From Treponema sp. (GTDB taxonomy: Bacteria; Spirochaetota; Spirochaetia; Treponematales; Breznakiellaceae), in contig JAIRQF010000059.1 in NCBI GenBank assembly GCA_031256635.1, positions 1 through 39,215 on the forward strand: DNA of 39,215 bases, given 5' to 3'. Shown one piece after another: positions 1 through 30,664 of this stretch. The number at the start of each line of letters is the position of its first letter. Within the stretch, counting starts at the first letter, position 1. The notes beneath the pieces are model-generated. The model saw only the letters and a program-made list of their open reading frames with translations, ran no database searches and was not told where the DNA came from. Position numbers and translations under genes: made by a program.

Positions 1-1116
1 CTTGATGAATGGCTGGCAAATATCGGATTGTCAAAAATGCGCCCGTCCAGCACGGACGAGGTAAAAGTCGCGAAAGGCAACACCAATTCCAAAATACAGG
101 CGCTTTATGAAAAGGCGCAGGGTAAACTTGAAGGCGCGAAATCCTTGCTTAAGGCAAAAGACAAGGAGCGCGTTGATGTCGAGAATATGCTGCGTGACAG
201 AGTAAATTCCCTATATGAAAAACATCCTCTTCGCGAGTTTGGCGAGGTAAGCGATACATATACCGACGGGCAAAAAGCGTCAATCAATGAAATTCAAAAT
301 CTGCTTAAGGTTTTACTTAAAAATGATCACGATCTGGAAGTAAGCATCAGGGATTTTGCCAATGCCGACACGGATGTACAGAGCCTTGCCGAAAAACTTG
401 CAAGTGAAGGCGGAAGCTCTGTTACGATTGATACAGGCGCGATTGATACCGAATGTGAAACCATCCGTCAAATGGCGAAAATGACAATCGGGCGGCAGGG
501 TAATCACTTTCCCATTTTAACCAACGAATATTATCACAGCGTTCCAAACGATGTGGCTACACGGGAAAACATCATTACCATGCTCGCCAGAATAGAGAGC
601 ATAGACGCTGAAGCTTTCTGCCGCATATATAAAAATAAATTAAACCGCATTACCCCGTATGTTTTGCTTTTAGCTACATACGGCGATATGGGTTTCTGCT
701 GGGAGCCGTTTGACCGTTTTAACAGAGCCACCAGCCGCGGCCGTATTATTGTCCCAATGTACCCCAGAAATTTATACATCGCTGTTTTGACGGCGGTTGC
801 CGATCTTCGCTGGCAGGTAGCCAAGGAAAAAGCGTCATTTTACTGGATGGAAGAAGGGCTTACAGGAAATTATTATCAGTGGTTCCAGGCGCAAAAATTA
901 AAAGGCGATATTAAGGAATATTTTATCCGTGATTATATTCTGTGGATGACAAAAGAATCGGAAGGAATTCAGAAACTTGATAAGGATGTCCGGGGCGCTT
1001 TCTGGCGGCACATGCCGTTTACAAGGGAAGTGAAAGAAAAACTCAAAAACCGCAATCTGATTTATCAGGAATTATATCAGCGTGATGTAAACCGCACAAT
1101 GTCTGACGGTTATTAA
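1..1116 (+). CDS. Conserved hypothetical protein, 5' truncated by window edge
   Basis: Reading frame is open from base 1 (LDEWLANIGLSKM...) to stop at 1116; no recognisable family. Confidence 0.8.
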   Translation, partial: LDEWLANIGLSKMRPSSTDEVKVAKGNTNSKIQALYEKAQGKLEGAKSLLKAKDKERVDVENMLRDRVNSLYEKHPLREFGEVSDTYTDGQKASINEIQNLLKVLLKNDHDLEVSIRDFANADTDVQSLAEKLASEGGSSVTIDTGAIDTECETIRQMAKMTIGRQGNHFPILTNEYYHSVPNDVATRENIITMLARIESIDAEAFCRIYKNKLNRITPYVLLLATYGDMGFCWEPFDRFNRATSRGRIIVPMYPRNLYIAVLTAVADLRWQVAKEKASFYWMEEGLTGNYYQWFQAQKLKGDIKEYFIRDYILWMTKESEGIQKLDKDVRGAFWRHMPFTREVKEKLKNRNLIYQELYQRDVNRTMSDGY

Positions 1117-1237
1117 GATCGGACATTAAATATAATTATATTGATATTAAAATAATCCTTGTGTTCACTGAATACTCGAAGTAAAATATTATTTACGGAT
1201 AGTGTTATATCCGAACAATGAAACAAGGAGCATATTT

Positions 1238-1690
1238 ATGGGTGTTTTTGATTCGATTAAAGAAAAACTTTTTGGCAAAAAGACAGCGGAACCAGCCAAG
1301 ACTGAAGTTATTCAGCCTAATTATTCAGCACCGTCAGGGACAGCGGCAGCGGCGATAGCGGCAGGAAAAGCCGCCGCGGCAAGAGCAGAAATAGCCGCCA
1401 AGATTGCTGAGGTTTCAAAACCGGCGCAACCTGTCGACATTGAAGCTATTATGGAAGCCGCTGTGAAAGCGAAAGGCATTAAGCTTAACTGGCGCGAATC
1501 CATTGTCGACTTATTGAAAGCGCTTGATCTTGACAGCAGTCTTGCTGCTCGAAAGGAACTTGCCGCCGATTTAAAATATTCAGGCCCTCACGCGGACGGT
1601 TCCGCAGAGAAGAACATCTGGTTGCACAAAGAAGTTATGAAGGCGCTTGCCGCAAACGGCGGAAAAGTACCGAAAGAATTATTAAAATAG
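1238..1690 (+). CDS. DUF3597 domain-containing protein
   Basis: Ala-rich linker then DWRxSIVDLLKxLxLDSSLAARKELAxxLxYxGxxxxSAxxNIWLHKxVMxxLAxNGGKVPxxLLK pattern; start moved to ATG 1238 behind SD aaggag. Confidence 0.85.
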   Translation: MGVFDSIKEKLFGKKTAEPAKTEVIQPNYSAPSGTAAAAIAAGKAAAARAEIAAKIAEVSKPAQPVDIEAIMEAAVKAKGIKLNWRESIVDLLKALDLDSSLAARKELAADLKYSGPHADGSAEKNIWLHKEVMKALAANGGKVPKELLK

Positions 1691-1691
1691 A

Positions 1692-1726
1692 TAGCCGCTT
1701 GCAAAACTGAAGTTTTGCAAGAGCTT
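1692..1726. repeat. Short form of dispersed GCTCTTGCAAAACTTCAGTTTTG repeat
   Basis: CTTGCAAAACT-GA-AGTTTTGCAAG palindrome at 1698-1721; its reverse complement matches both ends of the 7600-7731 element. Confidence 0.75.
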
Positions 1727-1745
1727 CTAAATTCTCGTAATATTA

Positions 1746-1769
1746 CAAGGCGCATATGTTTGCGCCTTG
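1746..1769 (+). terminator. Hairpin, possible terminator after DUF3597 gene
   Basis: CAAGGCGCA-tatgtt-TGCGCCTTG perfect 9-bp stem followed by cttctatt; weak U tract. Confidence 0.45.
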
Positions 1770-1795
1770 CTTCTATTAAAATAGAATAGTATACT
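1767..1795 (+). promoter_or_regulatory. Putative promoter of hflK
   Basis: TTGCTT-17-TATACT, then 6 nt to ATG 1802; no SD. Confidence 0.5.
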
Positions 1796-1801
1796 TCACT
1801 C

Positions 1802-2752
1802 ATGAAATTCACCTCACAAAACATGGGCAAGTTAAGCCCGCGACTTGTTTCCTTTATCATAGCGGGAATATTGGTGCTGATTTTTTTGGCTACCAGTGTT
1901 TTTATAGTCGATCAGACTGAACAGGCTGTTATTACCCGATTTGGAAAATTTATCGGTATAAGGGATCCCGGCCTTCACTTTAAGCTGCCCTTTGGTATTG
2001 ACCGCAATTATACGGTCAATGTCAGGACTGTACAAACCGAAGAGTTCGGTTATCGCACAACAAGGGGAGGAAATTTCCCCGCATACTCCAGTCAGTCAAT
2101 TGAATCTGTCATGCTTACAGGCGATTTGAATATTGTCGATGTTGAATGGATTATCCAGTACCGTGTTGTTGATCCAAAGGCATGGGTTTTTAACGTACAG
2201 GAGCGCACCGAAACAATCCGCGATGTGTCCCGTTCCGTTATCAATATGCTTGTCGGCGACCGCGCCATTATGGATATCATGGGCGTTGAACGCAGCGCAA
2301 TCGAAACCGAGTCTTCCATTATCATGAACGATACTTTCAATGACTACGCGCTTGGCATCAATGTTATCGCTGTCAGGCTGCAGAATGTCACCCCTCCGTC
2401 GGGACAGGTGCAGGAAGCTTTTGAGGATGTTAACAGGGCGATTCAGGATCGCGAGCGTCTTATCAATGAGGGGCAGCAGTCATACAACGAGGCGATTCCA
2501 AGGGCGAGAGGCGAAGCCGACAGGATGGTTCAGGAAGCGCAAGGTTACGCGCTTGAACGCGTGAACAGGGCAAACGGCGATGTCGCCCGTTTTATTTCCG
2601 TATTCGCGGAATACAGCCGCGCGCCTGACGTTACAAGGCAGCGTTTGTATTATGAAATGATTGAAGAAGTGTTCATGAACGAGACGGATATGACAATTAT
2701 TGACCGAAACCTTAATAATTTCCTGCCTCTTATGAACGTGGGAGGAAGATAA
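1802..2752 (+). CDS. hflK: Band-7/prohibitin family protease modulator HflK
   Basis: N-terminal TM, VDQTEQAVITRFGKF...DPGLHFKLPFGID, SPFH domain; adjacent to hflC. Confidence 0.9.
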   Translation: MKFTSQNMGKLSPRLVSFIIAGILVLIFLATSVFIVDQTEQAVITRFGKFIGIRDPGLHFKLPFGIDRNYTVNVRTVQTEEFGYRTTRGGNFPAYSSQSIESVMLTGDLNIVDVEWIIQYRVVDPKAWVFNVQERTETIRDVSRSVINMLVGDRAIMDIMGVERSAIETESSIIMNDTFNDYALGINVIAVRLQNVTPPSGQVQEAFEDVNRAIQDRERLINEGQQSYNEAIPRARGEADRMVQEAQGYALERVNRANGDVARFISVFAEYSRAPDVTRQRLYYEMIEEVFMNETDMTIIDRNLNNFLPLMNVGGR

Positions 2753-3741
2753 TGAAAAAATTTTTTACAACGTTAGTTGTTATATTCATCATAATAATTG
2801 CCATTGTTATTGCGGGCCCCTTGTTTGTCGTGAACGAAGGTGAGCAGGTTGTTATCGTTCAATTGGGAAGGATAACCAATGTTATTACCGACGCCGGACT
2901 TCATTTTAAAGTACCGTTTATTGACGAAGTCGTCCGTTACCCCAAAAAGATTATGGCGTGGAACGGAGAGGCAAATATCATACCGACAGCGGAAAGACAG
3001 TTCATATATGTTGACGTAGTGGCGCGCTGGCGTATTTCCGATCCAAAGGTGTATTACGAATCCATTAACACTGTTAACGCCGCTTACTCAAAACTTTCTG
3101 AAATTATCGACTCGGCTGTCCGTACTGTTGTCGCTGAAAACCCTTTAATTGAATCGGTGCGCAATTCAAATTCCATTATTGAACGCGGTACAAGCACAGA
3201 TGATCTTGGCCTTGGGGAAGGTATCGAAGTTGAAATTATCACTACAACAACACAGGCAAATTCCAGTCATGATCCCATTGTCCGCGGCCGCCGGCAGCTT
3301 GCCGAATTGATTCTTGCCCGTTCCAGGCAGAACATGGAACGCGAGTTCGGTATAACGCTGATTGATGTAGTAACGCGTCAAATCAGTTATTCTCCGGAGC
3401 TTACACCCAGCGTTCACGCGCGCATGATCAGGGAACGTAATCAGCTTGCAATGCTTTACCGTTCAGACGGAGAAGGCCGCAAAGCGGAATGGATGGGAAG
3501 AATGGACAGGGACAGGCGCGAAGTAATATCTGCCGCTTATTCCCAGTCGCAGACAATCATGGGAACGGCTGACGCCGAAGCCGCAAGGATTTACGCTGAT
3601 GCTTATAACAGGGACGCGTCAACCAGAAATTTTTATGATTACTGGAGATCGATAGAATCGTACCGTCAGACAATGCCCAAGTTTAATAAAACCCTTACTA
3701 CAGACATGGATTATTTCCGTTTTCTGTATAATCCCAGATAG
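2752..3741 (+). CDS. hflC: Band-7/prohibitin family protease modulator HflC
   Basis: VVNEGEQVVIVQLGRITNVITDAGLHFKVPFIDEV...; start overlaps hflK stop (taATG). Confidence 0.9.
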   Translation: MKKFFTTLVVIFIIIIAIVIAGPLFVVNEGEQVVIVQLGRITNVITDAGLHFKVPFIDEVVRYPKKIMAWNGEANIIPTAERQFIYVDVVARWRISDPKVYYESINTVNAAYSKLSEIIDSAVRTVVAENPLIESVRNSNSIIERGTSTDDLGLGEGIEVEIITTTTQANSSHDPIVRGRRQLAELILARSRQNMEREFGITLIDVVTRQISYSPELTPSVHARMIRERNQLAMLYRSDGEGRKAEWMGRMDRDRREVISAAYSQSQTIMGTADAEAARIYADAYNRDASTRNFYDYWRSIESYRQTMPKFNKTLTTDMDYFRFLYNPR

Positions 3742-3758
3742 GCGATGTAAAAGTAAGC

Positions 3759-5204
3759 ATGCTTAATGTTTATATTTCTGATGTAGATAACAAACCCGCT
3801 GTCTTTTTTAACTCAAGGCTTGATCCGCGTTCCTTCGCGAGAACCAAAATGTCCCAAAGCATGACCGAACAGGGTTTTATTGTAAACCCTGACGGCTCGC
3901 ATGAAATATGGAGAGCATCGGGAATTGATGAAAAAGACGGCTTCATGCAGTTCTGGGGCCCTCTGTTCAGCGGAAAAAGACTTGATTCCCTCATTGATGA
4001 AGCTGTTTCAAAGACAGACAGCGCGGCAGATCAAAGCGCACTGGACGCGGTTGTTCTGTGGATTAGGGCAAAAATGCTGTTAGGTGAAACTCTTTCCGCC
4101 GCCAATCCCGGCGCCGCGTTTGTCCGCTGCGAAGACGGGAAACCGGATCATTTAAAGAGCGGCATTTTTTTCTCACCTGAATATTTATCAACCCGGTGTC
4201 TTTTAATGGAAAGCTCGGATAAATATCCGTCGGATAAAAATCCGTCGGAAAAAGATCCGGTTGACCGTTATAACAGTCCTGATCTGAAAGGTTTGGATAC
4301 ATCGGCTTTTTGCGCCGGAGTTATGCTGTATACGCTCTTCGCAAAAGCACACCCATTTCTTTCCGGCAGCGTTTATCAGGATATGAGGGAAGGAGTATTT
4401 CTGCCCATTCATCTTGCCGCGCCGAATTTAAATGAAAAACTTTCCGGCCTTATTCAATCCGCGCTCATGCTGCCTGCCGCGAATAACAAACCTCCTGTCA
4501 AGGCTGCGGATATTCTTACGAATATACTTAAAACATTAATAAGTAATAATAATGAAATCGTTTCCGTTTCTTCGCTGTTTAATGTATTGTCAGAGGAAAA
4601 ATCACTGCAAATTGAAAATGAAAAGAACCGCTATCTTTCCAGACAAAAAAAAATCGTTAAAACAAAACGTTTTATACTTCGCAACAGAACCGTTTTATTG
4701 ATTGCCGCCGCGGTTCTTGTTTCTGTCATTTTAGTTATTTTCGGCATGATGGATAGTATCTCCAAGCGTCCGACAACCGCGGGAATGTATCCTGATAATG
4801 TTATATACGCCTATTTTAACGCGTTCAGTTCTCTGGATCATGTGTTAATGGAAGCATGCCTGGACGGTGCGAGTAAAGCCGATCTAAGCGCGGCTATCAG
4901 CATAACCGCAATTACAAGAACAAGAATGGCATATGAATCATCGATGCAGGGTATAATTACGGCTGAAGAATGGAGGGAAAACGGAGGAGAACTGCCCGCT
5001 CCCGATGTTTTTGGCGTAACGAATTTATCGATCTCTCAGGCAGGCGGCAGTATGGATGAAGGTATTGTAACTTACCGTGTTACTTACCAGCTTTGGCCTC
5101 TTGGCGAAGATCTGCCGTATAACCGCACCGATATTATGATATTAAAAATTGACAGAAAGAAAAATTGGCGGATAACGGAGATTCAGCGTACAGAAAGACA
5201 GTGA
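3759..5204 (+). CDS. Membrane protein with degenerate protein-kinase-like cytoplasmic region, one TM and an extracytoplasmic C-terminus
   Basis: LDTSAFCAGVMLYTLFAKAHPFLSG...LSGLIQSAL resembles kinase subdomains IX-XI; TM RTVLLIAAAVLVSVILVIFGMM; no HRD or DFG motif seen. Confidence 0.65.
   Translation: MLNVYISDVDNKPAVFFNSRLDPRSFARTKMSQSMTEQGFIVNPDGSHEIWRASGIDEKDGFMQFWGPLFSGKRLDSLIDEAVSKTDSAADQSALDAVVLWIRAKMLLGETLSAANPGAAFVRCEDGKPDHLKSGIFFSPEYLSTRCLLMESSDKYPSDKNPSEKDPVDRYNSPDLKGLDTSAFCAGVMLYTLFAKAHPFLSGSVYQDMREGVFLPIHLAAPNLNEKLSGLIQSALMLPAANNKPPVKAADILTNILKTLISNNNEIVSVSSLFNVLSEEKSLQIENEKNRYLSRQKKIVKTKRFILRNRTVLLIAAAVLVSVILVIFGMMDSISKRPTTAGMYPDNVIYAYFNAFSSLDHVLMEACLDGASKADLSAAISITAITRTRMAYESSMQGIITAEEWRENGGELPAPDVFGVTNLSISQAGGSMDEGIVTYRVTYQLWPLGEDLPYNRTDIMILKIDRKKNWRITEIQRTERQ
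4215..4259 (+). repeat. 3 x 15-bp tandem repeat inside CDS
   Basis: tcggataaatatccg / tcggataaaaatccg / tcggaaaaagatccg, encoding SDKYP-SDKNP-SEKDP. Confidence 0.8.
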
Positions 5205-5224
5205 TATCATTTTTTGCTTACCAA

Positions 5225-6040
5225 TCACTGGAAACAATTTTTCTTTTCAGCTAACCATTCATTTATCAAACTGCGTGACAGAGAGCCTTCGGCCGGCAGC
5301 TCAGGCAGATTGTCTTTTGTAAACCATGCGGCGTCTTCTATTTCCTCTCCGTCCGGATTAATTGTTCCTGATAAGTACCGCGCTCTAAAGCCAATCATCA
5401 GCGAGTTCGGGAAAGGCCACGGCTGGGAGGCGGCATATTCGATATTTTCTACTTCGATGTTTATCTCTTCTCGGATTTCTCTCGCTGCTGTTTCCTCAAG
5501 CGATTCTCCGGCTTCATTAAAACCTGATATGTGGCTGTAAACACCCTGCTTGAATCTTTTGTTATGCGCAAGCAGGATTCGGTTGTCATTATCTGTGATG
5601 ATTACAATAACAGCCGGACAAATTCTCGGAAACTCCATCCGTCCGCATTTCGGACAAAGACGGTGTTCCCCTCCGGGAACATCGTTGTTTTCCGCGCCGC
5701 AGGATCCGCAAAAGCGCGATTCCTGCCTCCACCCGGAAATGTGGCATGCGCGCATAATTTTTGATAATTTTACGTCTTCTTTCCCGGCTGCGCTGAACAT
5801 GGAAAGAAGATGGCGAACGGGAATTCGTTTCCAGTTTACAGGCAAAACAGTTTCCGGGGGAATATATACTCCGGTTATTATGGAAGGGGGAGAGCCGTCA
5901 ACCGCGGGAACTTCAAAAATTTGCGTATCTTTAAATTCTTTGGATAATTCAAGCGGCAATTCTTCGGTTATCTGTGAATCAGAAGTATTTTGCGGAACAA
6001 GTAAACCATCACTCTGAAAGAAAAACGCCTTTTTTTCCAT
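5225..6040 (-). CDS. nudC: NAD(+)/NADH pyrophosphatase, Nudix family
   Basis: Zn ribbon CGSCG...CPKCG, Nudix box GFNEAGESLEETAAREIREEIN, NudC motif SQPWPFPNSLM. Confidence 0.92.
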   Translation of the reverse strand: MEKKAFFFQSDGLLVPQNTSDSQITEELPLELSKEFKDTQIFEVPAVDGSPPSIITGVYIPPETVLPVNWKRIPVRHLLSMFSAAGKEDVKLSKIMRACHISGWRQESRFCGSCGAENNDVPGGEHRLCPKCGRMEFPRICPAVIVIITDNDNRILLAHNKRFKQGVYSHISGFNEAGESLEETAAREIREEINIEVENIEYAASQPWPFPNSLMIGFRARYLSGTINPDGEEIEDAAWFTKDNLPELPAEGSLSRSLINEWLAEKKNCFQ

Positions 6041-6046
6041 AATTTT

Positions 6047-6075
6047 ATCATAATTTGTTTTTATTTGTTTATCAA
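6047..6075 (-). promoter_or_regulatory. Putative promoter of nudC
   Basis: On minus strand TTGATA-17-TATGAT then 6 nt to ATG; no SD. Confidence 0.6.
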
Positions 6076-6138
6076 TTATTTTTATTTTATATTATAATTG
6101 TACGTGTCAATTTATTTTTTTCCGTAAAGGAGGCTATT

Positions 6139-6522
6139 TTGAACAGTATGAATTATCTTGAGATGCTGCCGCTGAGCAGTATCACTAAATACGCAAAGGG
6201 GCATCCTAAAGACGGAGTCTCTTTTTCGGGCTATCCAAGAGCGCACCCGTCGGATAAAAATAAACTTATTCTTGTAAATGACCCGCTGGGAAACGAGCCG
6301 ACAGTTCTGGAATTTAAACTTGATGATATTCTTTTTGTTGAGGAGGTTCCTTCCGCCGTTACCGAAACAGGCGAAGGCGTGCCTCTTGTAAAACTTTGGA
6401 TACAGCGCGGAGCGGTCGGAGTGATTCTTGAACCGTTTGAAGTAAACGATCAGATTCACTTTGCAGGGAAGGTCCGGGCAATTAAGGAACGTATTTTGCG
6501 CTGGCAGCAGGCGGCAGTTTAG
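6139..6522 (+). CDS. Conserved hypothetical protein
   Basis: SD aaggagg then TTG at 6139 (or ATG 6148); compact soluble protein of unknown family. Confidence 0.75.
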   Translation: MNSMNYLEMLPLSSITKYAKGHPKDGVSFSGYPRAHPSDKNKLILVNDPLGNEPTVLEFKLDDILFVEEVPSAVTETGEGVPLVKLWIQRGAVGVILEPFEVNDQIHFAGKVRAIKERILRWQQAAV

Positions 6523-6533
6523 TTTATTAATAA

Positions 6534-7592
6534 ATGGATACACCGGCAGTCTCTCAATTTAATTCCGCTGCGGGTCTCCCAATGTTTATGATGCCGGATG
6601 GAGAAAATGTCCGCTGCGATCTTTGTCCCAAAAACTGCAAAATAAAAACCGGAAATTTCGGATCATGCGGGGTCAGGGGCAATAAAGGCGGGAAGGGAAT
6701 AATTCCGTATTACGGGCTTATTTCCGCGTTAGCTGTCGATCCTGTTGAAAAAAAGCCGCTTTATCATTTTAAACCCGGATCAAAAATACTTTCACTCGGG
6801 TTTGCAGGATGCAACCTCCGCTGCCCTTTTTGCCAAAACTGGCAAATATCGCAGATAAATCAACGCTCACAGATAAATCAGCGCTCACAAAAAACTGATA
6901 TCAGCGATTTGGGCAGGCGTATGCAGAGCGGAGAAATTATTTCCGCAGCGCTGCGGCAGGATTCACCGTCCATTGCCTACACATACTCAGAACCTCTTGT
7001 TCATATCGAGTATATTCTGGATTGCATGGCGCTTGCGCGCAGGCACGGGATTGCGAATGTTCTTGTAACGAACGGCTGTATTAAACCTGAAGCTGCTGCC
7101 GCTGTTCTTAAATTGACTGATGCCGCCAATGTCGATTTAAAATGTTTTTCCGCGGACACTTATAAAAATTGTTTGGGCGGCGATTTGGAAGCGGTGCTTG
7201 ATTTTATCAGGTTATGCAGAAAAATGAATGTTCACATTGAAATAACCACATTGGTTGTACCGGATTTGAATGATTCAAGGGAAGAACTGGATGCGGCTGC
7301 GGATTTTATCGCGTCTGTCGATAAAGATATTCCATGGTTTCTTTCCGCGTATCATCCCGATTACCGCTGGAACGCGCCGCCTACAGATCCTGTTTTTTTA
7401 TTAAGAACGGCAAAAGAAGCCGGAAAGAAACTAACCTATGTTTATACCGGAAATTTTTCATCGGATAATAATACACATTGCGCTTCCTGCGGCGCTGTTC
7501 TTGTGAAACGCAGAGGTTATAACGCGGATACTTCGGGATTAATTAATAACACATGCGCGGCTTGCGGAAAAATAACAGATATAGTTATATAA
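6534..7592 (+). CDS. AmmeMemoRadiSam-type / PFL-activating-like radical SAM protein
   Basis: CDLCPKNCKI...GxCGVRGN...SLGFAGCNLRCPFCQNWQIS (CxxxCxxC), terminal zinc-ribbon-like Cys pairs. Confidence 0.88.
   Translation: MDTPAVSQFNSAAGLPMFMMPDGENVRCDLCPKNCKIKTGNFGSCGVRGNKGGKGIIPYYGLISALAVDPVEKKPLYHFKPGSKILSLGFAGCNLRCPFCQNWQISQINQRSQINQRSQKTDISDLGRRMQSGEIISAALRQDSPSIAYTYSEPLVHIEYILDCMALARRHGIANVLVTNGCIKPEAAAAVLKLTDAANVDLKCFSADTYKNCLGGDLEAVLDFIRLCRKMNVHIEITTLVVPDLNDSREELDAAADFIASVDKDIPWFLSAYHPDYRWNAPPTDPVFLLRTAKEAGKKLTYVYTGNFSSDNNTHCASCGAVLVKRRGYNADTSGLINNTCAACGKITDIVI
6852..6887 (+). repeat. 2 x 18-bp tandem duplication inside the radical SAM CDS
   Basis: cagataaatcaacgctca / cagataaatcagcgctca, encoding QINQRS twice. 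Confidence 0.85.
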
Positions 7593-7599
7593 AATCAAA

Positions 7600-7731
7600 G
7601 GCTCTTGCAAAACTTCAGTTTTGTAAGAGCTTCCTTAAATACCGCAGTTTTGCAGGGCGTTAGCCCGAAAAACTGCTTAGCCGCAGCATCGAACCAAAGG
7701 TTCGCACTAATCGTGTTTTGCAAGCGGCTAA
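7600..7731. repeat. Long form of dispersed repeat, multi-hairpin
   Basis: GCTCTTGCAAAACT-TC-AGTTTTGTAAGAGC (7601-7630), GCAGTTTT...GGGC-GTTA-GCCC...AAAACTGC (7644-7676), CGAACC-AAA-GGTTCG (7690-7704), end GTTTTGCAAGCGGCTAA. Confidence 0.8.
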
Positions 7732-7745
7732 TCATTTTAATCTTA

Positions 7746-7774
7746 TTGACTATCGGGTTGTTTTCTGTTTAAAC
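7746..7774 (+). promoter_or_regulatory. Putative promoter of SDR gene
   Basis: TTGACT-17-TTAAAC (weak -10), 7 nt before ATG 7782; no SD. Confidence 0.35.
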
Positions 7775-7781
7775 AATTATT

Positions 7782-8609
7782 ATGAAAAAACTTGCGCAAT
7801 ATATGCAATTTGTAAATAAATACGGGCCGTGCGCTCTTGTTGCCGGCGGTTCTGACGGCCTTGGCGCCGCATTTGCCGAAGCGCTTGCGCGCAGGGGTTT
7901 AAACCTTGTTTTAATTGCGCGCAATAAAGCAAGGCTGGACGAAACGGCAAAACGAATCAGGGATAAATATTCTGTTGATGTTTCTGTTATTACATGCGAT
8001 CTTGCCTACTATGAAAATGCAAAAAACCTCATACAGGAACATATTTGTGCGGATAAGAATAATTCCTACGGTGCTTCAATCGGTATATTGGTTTATAACG
8101 CGGCATTCGCTCCAATCGGGTTATTCGAAAATACAGACGAAGAGAGTTTATCTCTTGCTGCGGCTGTTAATGTAAGAACGCCGCTGTTACTTACAAAATT
8201 TTTATCCGCGCAAATGATTCAAAACAGGCGCGGAGGCATTGTGCTGATGTCTTCTCTTGCAGGCGCGCAGGGAAGTCCCAATCTTGCGGCATATGCCGCA
8301 ACAAAATCATTTAACGCGGTGCTTGCCGAAGGCTTATGGAAAGAACTCAAACCGCACGGCGTTGATGTAATCGGATGCTGCGCCGGCGCGGTACTTACGC
8401 CGGGTTATCAGCAGGCAGAAAAAGTTAAAAAAGCGCCCGGAACATTACCAGCGAAAGAAGTAGCGGAACAGACATTGAAAGCTCTTGGAAAGGGGCCTGT
8501 TGTTATTCCGGGAACAATTAATAAAATAGCGCGTTTTGTTTTAACGCGGCTTTTGACCAGAAAGGCTGCGATTAATATAATGTCAAATAATACAGGAAAC
8601 TTATTATGA
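7782..8609 (+). CDS. Short-chain dehydrogenase/reductase (SDR) family oxidoreductase
   Basis: VAGGSDGLGAAFAEALARRGLNLVLIARN Rossmann motif, YAATKSFN (YxxxK). Confidence 0.92.
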   Translation: MKKLAQYMQFVNKYGPCALVAGGSDGLGAAFAEALARRGLNLVLIARNKARLDETAKRIRDKYSVDVSVITCDLAYYENAKNLIQEHICADKNNSYGASIGILVYNAAFAPIGLFENTDEESLSLAAAVNVRTPLLLTKFLSAQMIQNRRGGIVLMSSLAGAQGSPNLAAYAATKSFNAVLAEGLWKELKPHGVDVIGCCAGAVLTPGYQQAEKVKKAPGTLPAKEVAEQTLKALGKGPVVIPGTINKIARFVLTRLLTRKAAINIMSNNTGNLL

Positions 8610-9697
8610 AAATGTGGATTTTAGGATTTTTTACAACTATTATCGCGTATGCCGGAATAACTTTTTTGCACATAATTCTGCCGGTTAAAAAAATCAATGG
8701 TTATGTGAAACATGAAAAAACAGGTGAGGTTCTGAAATACCGCATTAACGGAAAAATGGTTCTCCCTTTAAGCATTCTTATTTGGTTTGGTTTAGGATAT
8801 TTTAGTATAGTTCCTTTTGACTGGCTTTATCAGGTAAGGTGGCCGGGGCTTGTCTGCGCAGTTGTTATCGGGCTTATATTTTCTTTTATACTTGTTTTAA
8901 AGGTTCCTTCTTCAGGAAAACCTTTTATCGCTGATTTCTGGTTTGGAAGAATTTGGAATCCGCAAATCGGAAATGGTTTTATTGACGCAAAGATGTGGCT
9001 TTATTTAATCGGAGCCGTAATGCTTCAATTGAACGCGCTTTCATTCGCGGCGTATCACATACAGGAAATGCAAAGAACAGGTCAATTAATTAACTCAGGC
9101 TTTTTATTCGGAGCCGCGATGACATCATGGTTTTGTTGGGATTATTTGATTTTTGAAAAAGTTCATCTTTACACATACGATCTTTTCGCTGAAAGAGTAG
9201 GTTTTAAATTGGGCTTTGGCTGCCTTACCTTTTATCCGTATTTTTATATTATCCCGCTCTGGTGTACAGTTAATCTTCCCAATCCGGGCCATCCGCTTTG
9301 GCTTACAATTTTATTTGCCTGTATTTTTCTTTTTGGATGGATCTTCACGCGCGGCGCGAATCTGCAAAAATATTTATTTAAGACCGCGCCTGATAAGAAA
9401 TTCCTCTGGATGAAACCGGAAGTCCTTACCGATGGAAAACTCAGTCTTCTTGTCAGCGGATACTGGGGCGCAAGCCGCCATATAAACTACATGGGCGAGA
9501 TTATTCAGGCAATTGCCATCGCTCTTTCTGCGGGTTACCCTGGTGTTTGGCAGGTGTGGCTGTATCCAATTTACTATATCGGGCTTTTGTTCTCCCGTCA
9601 GGCGGATGATGATAAAATCTGCAAAGCAAAATACGAAGAACTGTGGGATGATTATAAGAAGAAAGTAAAGTACAGGATCATTCCCTTTATATATTAA
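8606..9697 (+). CDS. ERG4/ERG24 (sterol C14/C24 reductase)-family integral membrane protein
   Basis: GKPFIADFWFGRIWNPQIG and SGYWGASRHINYMGE...LLFSRQADDDKICKAKYEELWDDYKKKVKYRIIPFIY match the family signatures; polytopic; overlaps SDR stop by 4 bp. Confidence 0.82.
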   Translation: MKMWILGFFTTIIAYAGITFLHIILPVKKINGYVKHEKTGEVLKYRINGKMVLPLSILIWFGLGYFSIVPFDWLYQVRWPGLVCAVVIGLIFSFILVLKVPSSGKPFIADFWFGRIWNPQIGNGFIDAKMWLYLIGAVMLQLNALSFAAYHIQEMQRTGQLINSGFLFGAAMTSWFCWDYLIFEKVHLYTYDLFAERVGFKLGFGCLTFYPYFYIIPLWCTVNLPNPGHPLWLTILFACIFLFGWIFTRGANLQKYLFKTAPDKKFLWMKPEVLTDGKLSLLVSGYWGASRHINYMGEIIQAIAIALSAGYPGVWQVWLYPIYYIGLLFSRQADDDKICKAKYEELWDDYKKKVKYRIIPFIY

Positions 9698-9700
9698 AAT

Positions 9701-10198
9701 ATGAAAGAAATATTTGAAAATCAACTGCTTGCGGCATTAGCGACATTAATGCAATGTTTTGAAAATTGCCCTGATACTGAATGGGAAGAATCACATAACG
9801 ACGCTCCTTTTTCTCAAGTAATGTTTCATGCTTTATTTTTTACAGATTTTTATTTATCTGTGAACGAAATTGAATTCAAATTACAGAAATTCCACATTGA
9901 TAATAAGAACTTATTCAGGGATTATGAAGAATTGGAATACAGAAAAGCGGAGCATGTCTATTCCAGGGAAGAGATAAAAAAGTATTTTGATTTTTGTTTT
10001 TTCAAAGTAAAGGATTATTTTAAGGATATCAAGAGCGGAACTTTTACAGAAGACAGCGCGTTTAAAAAAATGACAGTATGCGAATTATTTATTTATCTTA
10101 TCAGGCATATACAGCATCACGCCGCGCAATTGGGTTTAAGAATACAGCAAATAACAGGTAAGGAATTAATCTGGGTTTCATCCGGATGGAACTTGTGA
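9701..10198 (+). CDS. DinB-superfamily protein
   Basis: Four-helix pattern with HALFFTDFYL and HIQHHAAQLGLR metal-site-like histidines, SSGW end. Confidence 0.75.
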   Translation: MKEIFENQLLAALATLMQCFENCPDTEWEESHNDAPFSQVMFHALFFTDFYLSVNEIEFKLQKFHIDNKNLFRDYEELEYRKAEHVYSREEIKKYFDFCFFKVKDYFKDIKSGTFTEDSAFKKMTVCELFIYLIRHIQHHAAQLGLRIQQITGKELIWVSSGWNL

Positions 10199-10245
10199 GA
10201 CAAGTTATTTGGCTTTATCCAAACGACGGGTGTTGAAATCCGTAT

Positions 10246-10386
10246 TTATTTTGATTCTTTTTCTTTCCCTGTTTTTCCGCAATTTGTTCTTGAACCATCC
10301 TTGCGGTGATATTCCTGGCAGGCTTTACAATCACCGTGACGATTACAGGGATAAGTACATTTACATTCATTGTTTTGATTCGGCAT
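10246..10386 (-). CDS. 46-aa cysteine-rich small protein (absent from ORF track)
   Basis: MPNQNNECKCTYPCNRHGDCKACQEYHRKDGSRTNCGKTGKEKESK; SD AGGAGAGG 5 nt upstream of ATG. Confidence 0.75.
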   Translation of the reverse strand: MPNQNNECKCTYPCNRHGDCKACQEYHRKDGSRTNCGKTGKEKESK

Positions 10387-10460
10387 AGTCCTCTCCTGTA
10401 TTAAGTATAGCACTTTTTACTATTGACAATACCACTATACTATGATTAAGTAATTGGAAT

Positions 10461-12452
10461 ATGCGTCAATTTGAAGTAGTGTCTCCGTTCAAGCCCGCAG
10501 GCGATCAGGGTGAGGCGATTGCCGCTCTTGCCGGCGGAATTAAAGCGGGTGATAAATATCAGGTATTGCAGGGCGTAACAGGTTCGGGCAAGACATTTAC
10601 CATGGCGAAGATTGTTGAGGCTGTGCAGATGCCGACTCTTGTTGTAAGCCATAATAAAACGCTTGCCGCGCAGCTTTACCGCGAATTTAAAAGTTTTTTT
10701 CCCAATAACGCTGTTGAGTATTTTGTTTCATACTACGACTATTATCAGCCGGAAGCGTATGTCGCAAGCCGCGATTTATATATCGAAAAAGACTCGTCAA
10801 TTAACGCCGAGATAGAGCGTATGCGCCTGTCCGCGGCGAGAAGTATGATGGAACGTGAAGATGTAATCATCGTAGCGACAGTATCCTGTATTTACGGAAT
10901 GGTAACGCCCGATGTTTATAAAAAAATGAACGCGACTGTCGCGAAAGGCGAGACTTTTGATGTTGACCATCTGATGCGGCGCTTTGTTGAGCTGCAATAT
11001 GAACGCAATGACGCAGTTCTTGAAAGGGGCCGTTTTCGCCGCAGAGGCGAGACGCTGGAAATTTATCCCGCTTATATGGAAGAGGCGTATCGAATTGATT
11101 TTGACTGGGATCGCGTTGAGCGAATCCGTCATTTTAATCCCGTGTCAGGCGAAATGCTGGAAGATATTGACCGCGCCCTTATTTATCCGGCAAAGCAGTT
11201 TGTTTTGCCCGGAGAGATGATAACTAATTCGTTAGGCGCTATCAGACAGGAACTGAAAGAGAGACTTGAATATTTTCAGAAGAACGGAAAGATAATGGAA
11301 GCTGAACGCCTTAAAACGCGCGTTGAATATGATTTGGAAATGTTATCTGAAATGGGCTACTGCCCCGGAATCGAAAATTATTCCGCTGTTTTGGCAGGCC
11401 GCAAACCTGGAGAATCTCCCGATACGCTGGTCGATTATCTTCCGAAAAGGCATCTTACCTTTATTGACGAAAGCCATGTAACGCTCCCTCAGTTGGGCGC
11501 GATGTACGCAGGGGATCGCAGCCGAAAACAGAGCCTTGTAGATTACGGTTTCCGCCTTCCCTGCGCTCTTGATAACCGGCCTCTCCGCTATGATGAATTT
11601 GTAGAGCGCCTTGATAAAACCGTCTTTGTTTCCGCTACTCCCGGAAAAACCGAAGTCCAGCAGTCATCGCGCGTTGTGCAGCAGCTAATCCGGCCGACCG
11701 GCCTTCTGGATCCGGAAATTGAAGTGCGTCCAAGCGAAGGCCAGATGGAAGATATTTACGGAGAGGTTATTAAACGCATCAAGGCCGGAGAGCGATCCCT
11801 CATTCTTACGCTTACAAAAAAAATGGCGGAAGACTTAACAGATTACCTTTCTGGTCTTGGATTGAAAGTACGCTATATTCACAGCGAAGTGGAAACAATT
11901 GAGCGCGTGGAAATTCTGACTCAATTACGGCAGGGCAGCTTTGACATTCTTGTCGGAATCAATCTGTTACGCGAAGGAATAGACCTTCCTGAAGTTTCTT
12001 TCATCGCGATTCTTGACGCTGACAAGATCGGTTTTCTGCGTTCTCTTACAAGCCTTGTTCAGATAATCGGGCGCGCCGCGCGCAACGCCGCCGGAAAAGT
12101 AATCATGTACGCCGATCGAATGAGCGAAGCGATGGAAAAGGCCATCGCGGAAACCAACCGCCGCCGTGAAATACAGCTTGAATATAATAAAAAGCACGGC
12201 ATAACTCCCGAAACGGTCAAAAAAGCCATCGCGGAAATATTGACACGTCATGCCGAAGAAGCGGACAGCGCCGCAGGAAACACAATCGAAGTTCTTAAAA
12301 AATCCTACAATGTGTTAATCCCCGCGCAGCGCAAACAGCTTATTAAGGCTCTTGAAAGCGAAATGCTCGAACATGCCAAAAACCTTGAGTTTGAGCAGGC
12401 GGCGGCTATCAGGGATGAGATCGCTCGTATAAAAAATAACGATGGGTTTTAA
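10461..12452 (+). CDS. uvrB: Excinuclease ABC subunit B
   Basis: GVTGSGKTFTMAKIVE, YFVSYYDYYQPEAYVA, FIDESHVTLPQL, QIIGRAARN, C-terminal UVR domain. Confidence 0.98.
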   Translation: MRQFEVVSPFKPAGDQGEAIAALAGGIKAGDKYQVLQGVTGSGKTFTMAKIVEAVQMPTLVVSHNKTLAAQLYREFKSFFPNNAVEYFVSYYDYYQPEAYVASRDLYIEKDSSINAEIERMRLSAARSMMEREDVIIVATVSCIYGMVTPDVYKKMNATVAKGETFDVDHLMRRFVELQYERNDAVLERGRFRRRGETLEIYPAYMEEAYRIDFDWDRVERIRHFNPVSGEMLEDIDRALIYPAKQFVLPGEMITNSLGAIRQELKERLEYFQKNGKIMEAERLKTRVEYDLEMLSEMGYCPGIENYSAVLAGRKPGESPDTLVDYLPKRHLTFIDESHVTLPQLGAMYAGDRSRKQSLVDYGFRLPCALDNRPLRYDEFVERLDKTVFVSATPGKTEVQQSSRVVQQLIRPTGLLDPEIEVRPSEGQMEDIYGEVIKRIKAGERSLILTLTKKMAEDLTDYLSGLGLKVRYIHSEVETIERVEILTQLRQGSFDILVGINLLREGIDLPEVSFIAILDADKIGFLRSLTSLVQIIGRAARNAAGKVIMYADRMSEAMEKAIAETNRRREIQLEYNKKHGITPETVKKAIAEILTRHAEEADSAAGNTIEVLKKSYNVLIPAQRKQLIKALESEMLEHAKNLEFEQAAAIRDEIARIKNNDGF

Positions 12453-15010: not shown

Positions 15011-15439
15011 ATGGCAGACAGTAAAATCGAACAATATTTAATCGATCTGATGATAACATATCAGCAGGTAGACGCGAATTTATGGCTGTTGGATGACGCG
15101 GAACACTCGCTTCAGGGTGTTGCAATCATGCAGGCCGAATCAATTGTCATTGTCAGGGCAGAAATTATGGATGTACCGCAAAACAATCTTTTGGAACTTT
15201 ACACAAAACTGCTTGAAATCAACGCTTCAGATCTTGTTCACGGCGCATACGCGCTTGAAAACAACAAGATTGTTCTAATTGATACTTTGCACTATGACAC
15301 AATGGATTATGATGATTTCCGGGCGGTTTTGGATTCATTCAGCCTGGCTTTAACTGAGCATTATCCGATACTTTCTAAATTTAGAGAAAAATCGTCTTCT
15401 TCGGAAGCCTCGTCTTCCGGAAAAGCCGTAGGAGCATAG
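15011..15439 (+). CDS. YbjN / type III chaperone-like small acidic protein
   Basis: Predicted mixed alpha/beta fold resembling CesT/YbjN proteins; in operon with pspA-like gene. Confidence 0.5.
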   Translation: MADSKIEQYLIDLMITYQQVDANLWLLDDAEHSLQGVAIMQAESIVIVRAEIMDVPQNNLLELYTKLLEINASDLVHGAYALENNKIVLIDTLHYDTMDYDDFRAVLDSFSLALTEHYPILSKFREKSSSSEASSSGKAVGA

Positions 15440-15440
15440 G

Positions 15441-16130
15441 ATGGGTATCTTTTCAAGACTTAAAACATTAATTTCCGCGAATGTAAACTCGCTTATCGGA
15501 AAAGCTGAAAAACCTGAAAAAATGTTAAACCAGCTTATTATCGAGATGAATGAACAGTTAATCGAGTCAAAGAAAGCCGTAGCCATGGCTATTGCCGATG
15601 AGAAGAAACTGGAGCGCGAAAAAGAAAACCAGTATGCCATGTCAAAGGAATGGGAACGCAAGGCGATGCTGGCAGTCACAAGCGGCAAGGATGATCTGGC
15701 GAAAGAAGCTCTTCTTCGCAAGCAGGAATACGATAACGCCGCCGCCGAGTATCAAAAACAATGGGAATCGCAGAAAAGTTCTGTCGATCATTTAAAAGAA
15801 AGCTTAAAAGAACTGCAAAACAAGATCGAAGAAGCCCAGCGAAAGAAAAATCTTCTCATCGCAAGAGCAAAGCGGGCCGAAGCCCAGCAGAAGATTCAAG
15901 ACACAATTTCCACAGTTTCCGGCAACCGCAGCGCCTTTGAGGCATTTGATCGTATGGCTACGAAAGTTGATGAAATGGAAGCGATGGCCGACGCTTCAAA
16001 AGAACTTCAGGATCTCAGCAACGATTCCAATCTTGAGAGAAAATTCAAAGAACTGGAAAGATCAGATTCCAGCGCCGATATGATGCTTCTTGAATTAAAG
16101 GAGAAAATGAAGGCTCTTCCGGGAAGCTGA
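15441..16130 (+). CDS. pspA: PspA/IM30 family protein
   Basis: MGIFSRLKTLISANVNSLIGKAEKPEKMLNQLIIEMNEQL, long coiled coil. Confidence 0.92.
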   Translation: MGIFSRLKTLISANVNSLIGKAEKPEKMLNQLIIEMNEQLIESKKAVAMAIADEKKLEREKENQYAMSKEWERKAMLAVTSGKDDLAKEALLRKQEYDNAAAEYQKQWESQKSSVDHLKESLKELQNKIEEAQRKKNLLIARAKRAEAQQKIQDTISTVSGNRSAFEAFDRMATKVDEMEAMADASKELQDLSNDSNLERKFKELERSDSSADMMLLELKEKMKALPGS

Positions 16131-24492: not shown

Positions 24493-24505
24493 TTAATGTT
24501 ATACT
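24477..24505 (+). promoter_or_regulatory. Putative promoter of GH130 gene
   Basis: TTGCCG-17-TATACT, 5 nt before ATG 24511; no SD. Confidence 0.5.
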
Positions 24506-24510
24506 TAATC

Positions 24511-25518
24511 ATGAGCAAATATATTATTAACGGCAGCAGTCTGCCGGATATTCCGTGGGAAGACAGACCGTCTTCAAGCGATCTCGAAAAGGATTTAATG
24601 TGGCGCTATTCGAAGAATCCCATTATTCCAAGGGATTTGACTTTACGTTCAAACAGTATCTTTAACAGCGCGGTTGTTCCGTTTAAGGGACAGGAAGCCG
24701 GATTCAGGTACGCCGGTGTTTTCCGCTGCGATGACACAGCCCGCCATATGGACATTCACGCGGGAAAAAGCAAGGACGGCATTAACTGGGTTATTGAGGA
24801 TGAACCCATAAAGTTTATAAAGACCGACCCTGAACTTCCCGATTCAGATTATAAATATGATCCACGCGTTATTTTTATTGAAGACCGGTATTATATTATT
24901 TGGTGTAATGGTTACTGCGGGCCCTGTCTTGGCATGGCTTACACTTATGATTTTGAAAAATTTTATCAGATGGAAAATCCGATGATGCCGTATAACCGTA
25001 ACGGCGCCCTGTTCCCGCGCAAGATTGGCAAAAACTACGCGATGTACAGCCGCCCAAGCGATTCGGGGCATACTCCGTTCGGCGACATCTGGTATTCAGA
25101 AAGCCCGGACTTTATTTACTGGGGAAAGCACCGCCATGTAATGTCGCCTAACGGAGGCTGGCAAAGCACAAAAGTGGGAGCGGGTCCCTGCCCCATTGAA
25201 ACAACAGAAGGCTGGCTTGTTTTTTATCATGGGGTGCTGACAAGCTGCAACGGCTTTGTTTACGCTTTCAGCGCGGCGTTAATGGACATTGACAAACCAT
25301 GGAAAGTAATCGCGCGTCCGCGTCCTTACATTATTAACCCGCGTGAAATTTACGAGCTTGCAGGCGATGTTCCCAATGTTACTTTCCCTGTCGCTTCCCT
25401 TGTAGACAAAGACACAGGCAAAGTCGCGATTTATTACGGCTGCGCTGATACGGTCACAGGTCTTGTCTTCGGCAAGATCGATGAAATAATTGACTGGGTA
25501 AAGAAAAATAAGATGTGA
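24511..25518 (+). CDS. Glycoside hydrolase family 130 (beta-mannoside phosphorylase-like)
   Basis: [69 protein letters not shown]. Confidence 0.88.
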
Positions 25519-27658: not shown

Positions 27659-30600
27659 TCATCCAAACTCAAAGCGCCATAAACCGGTTTTACCGTAAAA
27701 AACCAGATAAAAGTCATGTAAGCCGCAGATTTTTTCCATCTGACATTCAACGTACCCCCATGAAGGAAGCCTTCTGTGGCTTGTTTCTGGGAGCGGATAA
27801 AATGATATATCTCCGGTGTTTGGGATTTCAATTGAACCTGCAAGAAAACCGTCAGGAGAGTCTAGGCGAATTTCAAGGCGGCAATTATATCTGCCCTGAA
27901 CAATAGCTGAAAAGCGGGAGACGCCTGAGGCGAAATCCAAAGATAAAAAACGAATCCATCCGCCGTCTGTTTTATTAAATACTGCGGGAATTCTGTTGCC
28001 GCGTTTTTCATGCAGATAACATGAGCAGTAGTCGTCAAAACTTTGCGCGTAAATCTGATGGTTTTCTATTGCGTTATTCTGTCCGCTGGATTCAGGCGGC
28101 AGCGAGATTTTTCTGGGAAGAGGATTTTCTCCGTTAACATTAAAACCGCCTGAAAGGCGAATGTCCAAAGAAGACGCGCCTATTAATACAGAGCAGTAAC
28201 CGGATTCAACAATAAAACAATTTTTGAAACTGTCCCATATGGAAAGTTCGTTTACCGGCAGTTCAAATGTAATGGTTTTTTCTTCGCCTGACGCAAGTGA
28301 CAGACGGGAAAATCCTTTCAAGGTTTTTAACGGACGGTAAAACGAAGAACCTGAAAAAGTAATATACATTTGCGGAACTTCTTCCGAAGATACAGAACCT
28401 GTATTTTTCAGATTAAATGTTACATTAACAATTTCATCTTTATTCGCCGCTGTTTTATCAATTCTTAACAGGGAATACTCAAAGACGGCGTACGAAAGAC
28501 CGTGTCCGAACGGCCACAGTACCTTTCCGGAAAAATATTGATATGTAGATGCGCCTTTTTGAATATCGTATTCCATGATTGACGGAAGCTGTTTTTCATC
28601 TTCATACCATGTAAGGGGAGTCCTTCCCGCAGGAGAAGAGCCGCCGCTAATTATGTCCGCGATGCCGTTTCCTGTTTCCTGAATACCGTGCGCCATCCAT
28701 AAAATTGCCGGAACTTTCTTTGCGATCTCTTTACAGGAATAAGGATAACCTGAAAGCAGTACCAATACTGTTTTTGGATTTATTTCCGCTGTTCTGCGGA
28801 TTAATTCCTCCTGGCGCGCGGGTAAATTCAAACCAGGGCGATCTACACATTCGCGTCCGTTAATCATGGGATCGTTACCTGCGAATATAATTACATGTCC
28901 AGCTTTCGAGGCGGCTTCGCACGCTGACGCAAGACCGTCTTTTTCAATTTTCATCCGGAATAATTCGCCGTTAGCTGCAATAGGATCATCATGTTGAATT
29001 ACCGGAACATTTGTCTCTCTGAAAGCGGCGCGCCTGTTGTCGTGCGTTTTTAAAAAAACAGCGCCGCCTTCCTGCGGAACTATATTAAAAAGCGTAAAGC
29101 CGAACCATTCCAGATTGTTTTTTCCATCCGCTGTAATTGTAAACTCTGTGCGCGTATTGGGAGGCATCGCTTCCGGTGGAATCGGCTCTTTGCGAGGAGG
29201 GACAACTTCCCGTCTTCCGTAACAGCCCTGAAGCATAAGGCCGCTTTCAACATCGGTAAATGTTTTTACGCCCCATCCCCAGTCTTCCATATAAAAACGC
29301 GCTGCGTTTTCACCTAACGAGCCGGCTGCCAGTGTTTTTCTTGTTTTTACCGTAGAGTTTATTGGATTATCGTTATTGCTGCTTTCTTTTACATCAATTA
29401 GTATTAAAGGTCTTCCGTCTTCTGTTGTAAATGAAACGATATCGCGGCAGTCGGTATATTCTATTTTATCGCCGTAAATTTCTTTAAGGCCGTTCAAAGG
29501 CGTACTAGAATACGCAGGGTGGCCTGAGTACCAGTCAAGATGCAGATCATCCGCAAGGGGACCCATTACTGCGATTGTTTCATTTATCGTTCCGGGCCGC
29601 AGCGGAAGAATCGAACTATCATTTTTAAGCAATACAACTGATTTTCTGACCGCTTCCCGCGCGAGCTCTTCCTTCATTGAATCGGTTTCATTAAATTCCT
29701 CGAATGGACAAAGTTCCGGCGGATCAAACTGACCGAAACGAAACCTGACTGCAAGGATTCTTTCAAGGTGTTCGTCAAGGTCTGCCTCACAAATTAAATT
29801 TCTTTCCAGCGCTTCCTTTGCCGCGAATATTATTCCTTCCGGCATATCCGTCATATTGTCAGCGCCGTTTTTAAGCGCGGCGGCAAAAGTTTCTCCGTGT
29901 GTTTCAAAATAATGATGAAGATCAACAGTGTGCAGAAAATCGCCGCCGTCTGTTACCATATGGCCTTCAAAACCCCAATCGTTTTTTACAGTTTCTTTCA
30001 GCAGAGGATGCAGCATCATGGGAATGCCGTTTACTTCGTTGTAAGCTGTCATCATGGACGCGGCTCCTGCGTGCTTGATGGCGTTTTTAAAAGGAACAAG
30101 ATAATATTCATGCATCAGGCGCGCGGGAATTGAACATGAACATGCGCAGCGATTCTCCTCGTTGTTATTCGCAAAAAAATGCTTTGGGCCGCAGCTTGCG
30201 CGCAGATAGAAAGGATCATCTCCCTGAACGCCTTTAATGTATTCGCATGAAAGTTCGCTTGTAAGGAAAGGATCTTCCCCGTAACCTTCTTCGGTACGGC
30301 CCCAGCGCGGATCGCGTTCAAGATCAATTGTCGGAGACCAGACTTCAAGGCCGCGCTTGCGGCTGTTGGCTTTATAATAAACGCGCGCTTCTGAGCCCAC
30401 AACTTTTCCGATTCTGCGCATAAGGTCTCTGTCCCATCCTGCAGCGAGCCCTATTGTCTGCGGAAAAGTGGTATTTTTTCCTTCCCTGTTAACAAAACCG
30501 TGCGCTCCTTCTCCGCCGAAACTCCACTCAGTGATTCCAAGCCGCTCAACGGCATGATTATGCGTTGGAATAAAACCGATTTTTTCGTCAATTGTAAGTC

Positions 30601-30664
30601 TTGAAATTAAATCTTTAATTCGTTCTTTTAGCGGTAATTTTGGATCATAAAACGGATACATCAT
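27659..30664 (-). CDS. Glycoside hydrolase family 3 (beta-glucosidase/xylosidase-like) with C-terminal FnIII-like and CBM6-like regions
   Basis: GEGAHGF, SPTIDLERDPRWGRTEEGYGEDPFLTSEL, KHFFANNNEENR, MVTDGGD; ends in CBM6-like beta domain. Confidence 0.93.
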   Translation of the reverse strand: MMYPFYDPKLPLKERIKDLISRLTIDEKIGFIPTHNHAVERLGITEWSFGGEGAHGFVNREGKNTTFPQTIGLAAGWDRDLMRRIGKVVGSEARVYYKANSRKRGLEVWSPTIDLERDPRWGRTEEGYGEDPFLTSELSCEYIKGVQGDDPFYLRASCGPKHFFANNNEENRCACSCSIPARLMHEYYLVPFKNAIKHAGAASMMTAYNEVNGIPMMLHPLLKETVKNDWGFEGHMVTDGGDFLHTVDLHHYFETHGETFAAALKNGADNMTDMPEGIIFAAKEALERNLICEADLDEHLERILAVRFRFGQFDPPELCPFEEFNETDSMKEELAREAVRKSVVLLKNDSSILPLRPGTINETIAVMGPLADDLHLDWYSGHPAYSSTPLNGLKEIYGDKIEYTDCRDIVSFTTEDGRPLILIDVKESSNNDNPINSTVKTRKTLAAGSLGENAARFYMEDWGWGVKTFTDVESGLMLQGCYGRREVVPPRKEPIPPEAMPPNTRTEFTITADGKNNLEWFGFTLFNIVPQEGGAVFLKTHDNRRAAFRETNVPVIQHDDPIAANGELFRMKIEKDGLASACEAASKAGHVIIFAGNDPMINGRECVDRPGLNLPARQEELIRRTAEINPKTVLVLLSGYPYSCKEIAKKVPAILWMAHGIQETGNGIADIISGGSSPAGRTPLTWYEDEKQLPSIMEYDIQKGASTYQYFSGKVLWPFGHGLSYAVFEYSLLRIDKTAANKDEIVNVTFNLKNTGSVSSEEVPQMYITFSGSSFYRPLKTLKGFSRLSLASGEEKTITFELPVNELSIWDSFKNCFIVESGYCSVLIGASSLDIRLSGGFNVNGENPLPRKISLPPESSGQNNAIENHQIYAQSFDDYCSCYLHEKRGNRIPAVFNKTDGGWIRFLSLDFASGVSRFSAIVQGRYNCRLEIRLDSPDGFLAGSIEIPNTGDISFYPLPETSHRRLPSWGYVECQMEKICGLHDFYLVFYGKTGLWRFEFG

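Follow-up and report, generated by a model that had tools for sequence, protein, structure and literature searches.

A divergent ERG4/ERG24-family reductase coupled to a short-chain dehydrogenase in Treponema: a candidate two-gene lipid-reducing module

Two overlapping genes in a Treponema contig, coding for a short-chain dehydrogenase/reductase (SDR) and for a homolog of the ERG4/ERG24 sterol reductases, raise the question of whether their products form a functional unit and on which lipid such a unit might act. In the contig stretch analysed here (39,215 nucleotides; hereafter the window), a classical SDR gene (7782..8609, + strand; 275 aa; PF00106, adh_short; e-value: 1.2e-36) is followed by a gene for an integral-membrane NADPH reductase of a divergent ERG4/ERG24 subfamily (8606..9697, + strand; 363 aa; PF01222; e-value: 2.8e-41). 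The open reading frame coordinates (7782-8609 and 8606-9697) agree with the 4 bp ATGA-type overlap noted when the sequence was first read, and this stop/start overlap (8606..8609, + strand) suggests translational coupling. A radical SAM gene (6534..7592, + strand; PF04055; e-value: 9e-18) lies upstream; it is common to several relatives and missing at other loci of the pair, and is a marker of the commonest locus, outside the unit. Directly downstream, a DinB-like gene (9701..10198, + strand; 165 aa; PF12867, DinB_2; e-value: 2e-5, barely above the cut-off) begins 3 bases past the reductase stop codon. Besides the window genome, only the nearest relative (G033) was seen to have this gene next to the pair, and the gene was rejected as a member of the operon.

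The initial attribution of this DNA to a spirochaete was borne out, the source being a Treponema metagenome-assembled genome (MAG) of termite-gut type. The closest named relatives are the Treponema MAGs Co191P3bin16, Co191P3bin32 and Co191P1bin8 (93%, 82% and 85% identical, respectively, along the whole length of the proteins), where we take "Co191" to denote a Cornitermes termite sample. The family Breznakiellaceae accounts for most spirochaetes of termite guts (PMC13067680). It is probably also the window's family. In the nearest relatives, the genes surrounding the pair follow a collinear order, indicating that the contig is not a contaminant. Elsewhere in the window, genes for a GH130 β-1,4-mannooligosaccharide phosphorylase (24496-25518) and a GH3 enzyme with a CBM6 module (27659-30664) are fitting for a hemicellulose-degrading gut treponeme, and a CesT_Tir_1/YbjN-like protein is encoded directly before PspA/IM30 (15011-16130).

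Placement of the second protein in the ERG4/ERG24 family, as proposed from the sequence alone, was upheld. It matches PF01222 over profile positions 71-432 of 432 (Bitscore: 142, cut-off 27; e-value: 2.8e-41), carries both of the signature stretches on which the proposal had drawn, and in a PDB sequence search retrieves the delta14-sterol reductase MaSR1 (4quv; e-value: 3e-32), with which it shares 33% amino acid identity, and a second delta14-sterol reductase (9l5r; e-value: 2e-21). The structural comparison with MaSR1 suggested at the outset points the same way: an AlphaFold (AF2) model, built from five sequences and with a pLDDT of only 60.5, too weak for pocket analysis or docking, has 4quv as its only significant Foldseek match (probability: 1.00; e-value: 1e-11; TM: 0.67), in keeping with a fold of the MaSR1 type. 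A best match to a generic isoprenylcysteine methyltransferase (ICMT) or DUF1295 protein with lost NADPH residues, which the sequence-only reading had named as the result that would overturn it, was not obtained: DUF1295 scores 23.5 bits against 142 for PF01222, the NADPH residues are kept, and misassignment was rejected on the profile scores and the 4QUV fold match. Furthermore, hmmscan identified no PF02544 (SRD5A/Steroid_dh) match in the reductase protein, nor was any found in the window genome (G000).

Alignment with MaSR1 shows which parts of the active site have been retained. The NADPH-site residues K319, W352, N359, Y360, R395, D399, C403 and Y407 (MaSR1 numbering) are identical in the reductase, and MaSR1 R323 is replaced by Lys. 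Two of them, N359 and R395, correspond to N547 and R583 of LBR, where mutation cuts NADPH binding (PMC4951196). Tyr241 and Asp363 of MaSR1 are the catalytic pair predicted from structure and docking, with Tyr241 as the proposed proton donor (PMC12489058); they align to Phe176 (codon 9131..9133, + strand) and Glu298 (codon 9497..9499, + strand) of the reductase. The Tyr241 position is occupied by Phe in 22/22 members of the reductase clade and by Tyr in 13/13 other relatives examined, while Glu at the Asp363 position is also found in several bacterial C14-type reductases and was rejected as a clade marker. Further clade-specific changes, fixed or nearly so, are Q220H, M266K, L275Y and R398D; D271C is also found in one other non-C14 group, and H151, K201 and Y210 are new invariant polar residues of the clade. 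The C-terminal signature had initially been read as altered at its HR and RD positions and hence as a sign of a different substrate. The flanking residues are indeed changed in the clade (His394 to S/T/A, Arg398 to D/A), but R395 and D399, on the NADPH side, are conserved. An altered substrate is still probable, but the argument from the HR/RD residues fails, the telling change being that of Tyr241 to Phe in the catalytic site. The NADPH half of the active site is kept and the proton-donor half rebuilt.

The reductase clade stands apart in the tree (support: 100/100) on a stem of 2.04 changes/site, as long as any other, a length that calls for long-branch caution in its placement and may leave room for a changed substrate class. 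It appears to lie outside the C14-type subgroup of ERG24 and MaSR1: Tyr241 is lost and, with the same long-branch caution, it branches outside the C14 clade. The best reading of these data is that the reductase represents a new ERG4/ERG24 subfamily which, together with the SDR, would form a sterol- or steroid-reducing module. A subfamily in which the presumed proton donor has been uniformly replaced furthermore constitutes a natural experiment on double-bond choice in these membrane reductases.

The SDR contains the glycine-rich Rossmann motif GGSDGLG and the Ser-Tyr-x3-Lys catalytic residues (S157, Y171 and K175) of a classical SDR. G22, S157, Y171 and K175, as well as R47, are invariant among nine homologues, and the position of Arg47 after β-2 suggests the use of NADP(H). 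No NCBIfam equivalog (mycolate reductase, 7β-HSDH, FabG) was matched above its cut-off, the best being mycolate_SDR with 130 against 380 bits.

Members of the reductase clade are present in 25 of 200 genomes of the window's family, representing 7/57 genera, and the SDR in 22/200. Both genes occur in 20 genomes, the reductase only in five, the SDR only in two and neither in 173 (Fisher p 7e-21, which overstates independence among related genomes), and four of the five reductase-only cases start at a contig edge. Where enough upstream sequence is available, the SDR gene lies directly upstream of the reductase gene in 20/21 cases, and a 4-bp ATGA/GTGA overlap is seen in about ten homologous pairs, about half of the adjacent cases. 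The coupled pair recurs in other genomes of the family as well as in one gammaproteobacterium, so that its arrangement cannot be put down to chance, and the functional pairing first suggested by a single overlap is supported. The coupling is not absolute: one genome (G004) has a lone reductase with no SDR above the threshold, and in another (G027) the SDR gene is intact at the usual radical SAM locus (L102:3155-4000), with the reductase missing and two opposite-strand genes in its place. The latter SDR may be a natural single-gene remnant or reflect independent use of the SDR. The combination of an SDR with a PF01222 protein carrying Phe at position 241 provides a searchable signature by which others may detect the pair in metagenomes.

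The pair is found at several unrelated loci. No neighbor recurs across these, where Mg-chelatase-like/DHH/Mem_trans genes, a tRNA synthetase, a nucleotide cyclase, an AraC regulator and a PF09479 repeat protein variously adjoin it, and no adjoining gene at any examined locus points to steroids. Relative to the window copy, the reductase has a dN/dS of about 0.05-0.10 and the SDR one of about 0.12-0.24, low values which indicate that both are functional genes under purifying selection. In the reductase tree, genus g188 is rejected as a monophyletic group (p-AU 0.0008), as is, weakly, g1 (p-AU 0.035), which suggests exchange of the reductase between lineages. The SDR and reductase trees have 9/16 splits in common, including most of the well-supported ones.

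Among 345 spirochaete genomes from across the phylum, no member of the reductase clade was found outside the window's family. Three spirochaete genomes of another family encode canonical full-length ERG4/ERG24 proteins (G140, L058:7736-9004; G194, L059:7152-8417; G199, L060:8768-10060), with an EBP-type gene adjoining the reductase gene in G140 and a tocopherol-cyclase-like gene nearby in G199. In a scan of 369 genomes from the class of the gammaproteobacterial carrier, the pair occurs in a single MAG (G100; WTFY01000010), in the same order, with the same overlap and with 47% identity to the window pair. This genome also contains a sterol cluster comprising a squalene epoxidase-cyclase fusion, a P450, a C14-type reductase, a Rieske protein and a 3β-HSD-like SDR, to which the pair is not physically linked. 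Clusters of this kind are found in about 4/369 genomes of the class, three besides G100, and given this rarity it is notable that the sole carrier outside the treponemes is a sterol maker. In the gammaproteobacterial sterol clusters, squalene epoxidase and oxidosqualene/squalene cyclase are fused in open reading frames of 1130-1184 aa (L056:7676-11068, - strand; L062:10201-13659; L064:298-3852), of which that in L056 matches the Pfam profiles SE and SQHop_cyclase N and C.

Carriage of the pair by phages or plasmids was rejected, no phage match being found and the single plasmid match being a different, C14-type reductase. A fragment encoding a 71%-identical reductase is present in a viral collection (IMGVR_UViG_3300037657_000160, positions 3-752; L088), on a 4.8-kb contig that is probably a chromosomal fragment. 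Plasmid p2 of Planktothrix agardhii (NZ_LR882940.1, positions 1-11473; L053) bears an apparent sterol-biosynthesis cluster with genes for an SDR, an FAD oxidoreductase, a P450, three Rieske proteins, an ERG24-type reductase annotated as "hypothetical protein" and an EBP (emopamil-binding) protein.

The absence of accompanying sterol-biosynthesis genes, first noted for the window, was followed into the genomes of carriers. Profile searches found neither a triterpene cyclase (PF13249) nor a squalene/phytoene synthase (PF00494) in ten pair-carrying treponemes, the window genome included, while both were found in G100; the carrier MAGs are incomplete, yet the absence is consistent in all ten. The idea that the treponeme makes sterols of its own was accordingly rejected, and a sterol used as substrate would need an external source. 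Similarly, the pair shows no association with 5α-reductases of the PF02544 family, one weak sub-cut-off match being obtained among 19 treponeme carriers against two among 20 non-carriers. Insects, unable to make sterols, rely on their diet and on microbes for them. We know of no gut bacterium to which sterol alteration in termites has been assigned, and the pair is a compact two-gene candidate for it. Stigmastanol occurs in plants too. Both cholestanol and stigmastanol are present in the frass of a lower termite, with no attribution to bacteria (PMC11679580). Use of host or dietary sterols by the pair would fit both the genomic data and the production of sterols by the gammaproteobacterial carrier.

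We propose that the pair constitutes a self-contained two-enzyme lipid-reducing module, in which an ERG4/ERG24-family C=C reductase and a dedicated SDR would act on what is likely an external sterol or steroid, a reading to which we give just short of an even chance. We infer its substrate class, direction and physiological use, the last perhaps in membrane lipid, as an electron sink or in detoxification. The reductase would be an NADPH-dependent C=C reductase of its own subfamily, and the SDR its dedicated partner, with a hydroxyl or carbonyl group on that lipid as its target. As the treponemes apparently make no sterols, the likely substrate would be a sterol or steroid from the termite or its food, such as cholesterol, phytosterols or fungal sterols. 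With the NADPH half of the active site kept, the proton-donor half rebuilt and the SDR obligate-looking, the pair is most simply read as one in which the SDR introduces, and later takes away, a carbonyl that activates the double bond. It would oxidise the 3-hydroxyl to a ketone, allowing a conjugated enone to form; the reductase, without the Tyr with which its relatives presumably protonate an isolated double bond, would deliver the NADPH hydride to this enone, and the SDR would then reduce the ketone back to an alcohol, yielding a saturated stanol. This enone route is a tentative suggestion that we consider rather doubtful, and the loss of Tyr241 could alternatively reflect a non-sterol substrate. 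A shade more doubtful is the wider proposal of an undescribed anaerobic hydrogenation of sterols or triterpenoids in termite-gut spirochaetes, by which a Tyr-less, SDR-coupled reductase, exchanged between treponemes and shared with a sterol-making gammaproteobacterium, would reduce enone intermediates and so convert host or dietary sterols to stanols.

Other substrates and chemistries have to be weighed against the proposed module. The reductase may be a C14, C7 or C24 sterol reductase of the ordinary kind, reducing an isolated or dienic bond in a sterol that the cell has imported. Glu298 or some other residue would then stand in for Tyr241 as the acid, and the SDR would perform an unrelated 3-ketosteroid/hydroxysteroid step. 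Its PF01222 membership and conserved NADPH site would suit this, as would the precedent of Coxiella Stmp1 (CBU1206), an orphan sterol reductase of a bacterium that makes no sterols, which is active on yeast sterols (PMC8787468). We nevertheless hold it to be unlikely, since every other member examined keeps the Tyr241 that is Phe throughout the clade, and the clade is set off by the longest stem in the tree. To our knowledge, near-obligate pairing with an SDR has not been reported for C14, C7 or C24 reductases, which also counts against it.

Peptidoglycan-bearing bacteria make endogenous polyprenol, so that a linear isoprenoid substrate would require no import. In such a scheme, following the logic of dolichol synthesis, the SDR would oxidise polyprenol to polyprenal, the reductase would saturate the conjugated bond and the SDR would re-reduce the aldehyde, a division of labour between SDR and membrane reductase that is established in animals for DHRSX and SRD5A3 (PMC11607601); SRD5A2 and MaSR1, moreover, have a six-helix core in common (PMC7591894). 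Its probability seems to us lower again, as the protein belongs to PF01222 and not to Steroid_dh/SRD5A, PF02544 being missing from the window genome and nearly all carriers, the patchy distribution (25/200) is unlike that of a general cell-envelope lipid, and the one carrier found outside the family makes sterols. That same carrier is left unexplained if the pair detoxifies a dietary or host terpenoid, such as plant or soldier-defence di-/triterpenoid alcohols or enones, through ketone and C=C reduction. A patchy gene pair, probably horizontally shuffled and present at many loci in the family, would suit such an accessory trait, but neither an efflux gene nor a regulatory gene accompanies it with any consistency, the AraC-type regulator and Mem_trans gene each lying beside a single copy, and we consider detoxification the least probable of these explanations.

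Compared with known systems, the reductase resembles MaSR1 of Methylotuvimicrobium alcaliphilum (4QUV) in Pfam family, in NADPH residues, in its 33% identity and, in a low-confidence model, in fold, and shares a short N-terminus with the cluster-borne bacterial C14-type reductases. It differs from MaSR1 in the fixed or nearly fixed replacements Tyr241 to Phe, Asp271 to Cys, Gln220 to His, Met266 to Lys, Leu275 to Tyr and Arg398 to Asp, and from both in being SDR-coupled and in having treponeme carriers without sterol-synthesis genes. Orphan ERG4/ERG24-type enzymes are also found in other host-associated bacteria, namely Stmp1/CBU1206 and CBU1158 of Coxiella burnetii and the delta7-reductases of Legionella drancourtii and Protochlamydia (PMC8787468, PMC2667531). 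Those bacteria are, however, intracellular or intra-amoebal and their enzymes are thought to be eukaryotic in origin, whereas the treponemes live as symbionts in the gut and their reductases form a clade that groups with a gene from a gammaproteobacterium, the Coxiella proteins being compared by description only. A gut spirochaete that takes up and reduces a sterol has a parallel in Brachyspira (Treponema) hyodysenteriae, which reportedly reduces cholesterol to cholestanol (Stanton 1987); with no clade member outside the window's family among the 345 spirochaete genomes, cholesterol reduction of the Brachyspira type must use other enzymes.

A parallel in logic is the DHRSX and SRD5A3 dolichol pair, in which an SDR first oxidises an alcohol and then, once a membrane-bound C=C reductase has acted, reduces it again (PMC11607601), and on the simplest reading the proposed carbonyl activation would follow the same logic by analogy. 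It differs in that the DHRSX and SRD5A3 system employs a reductase of the SRD5A/PF02544 family, a linear substrate and genes that are not in an operon. The sequence-only reading is thus confirmed in its observation and partly supported in its interpretation. The kind of enzyme is itself already known; what is new is the ERG4/ERG24 subfamily and its SDR partner.
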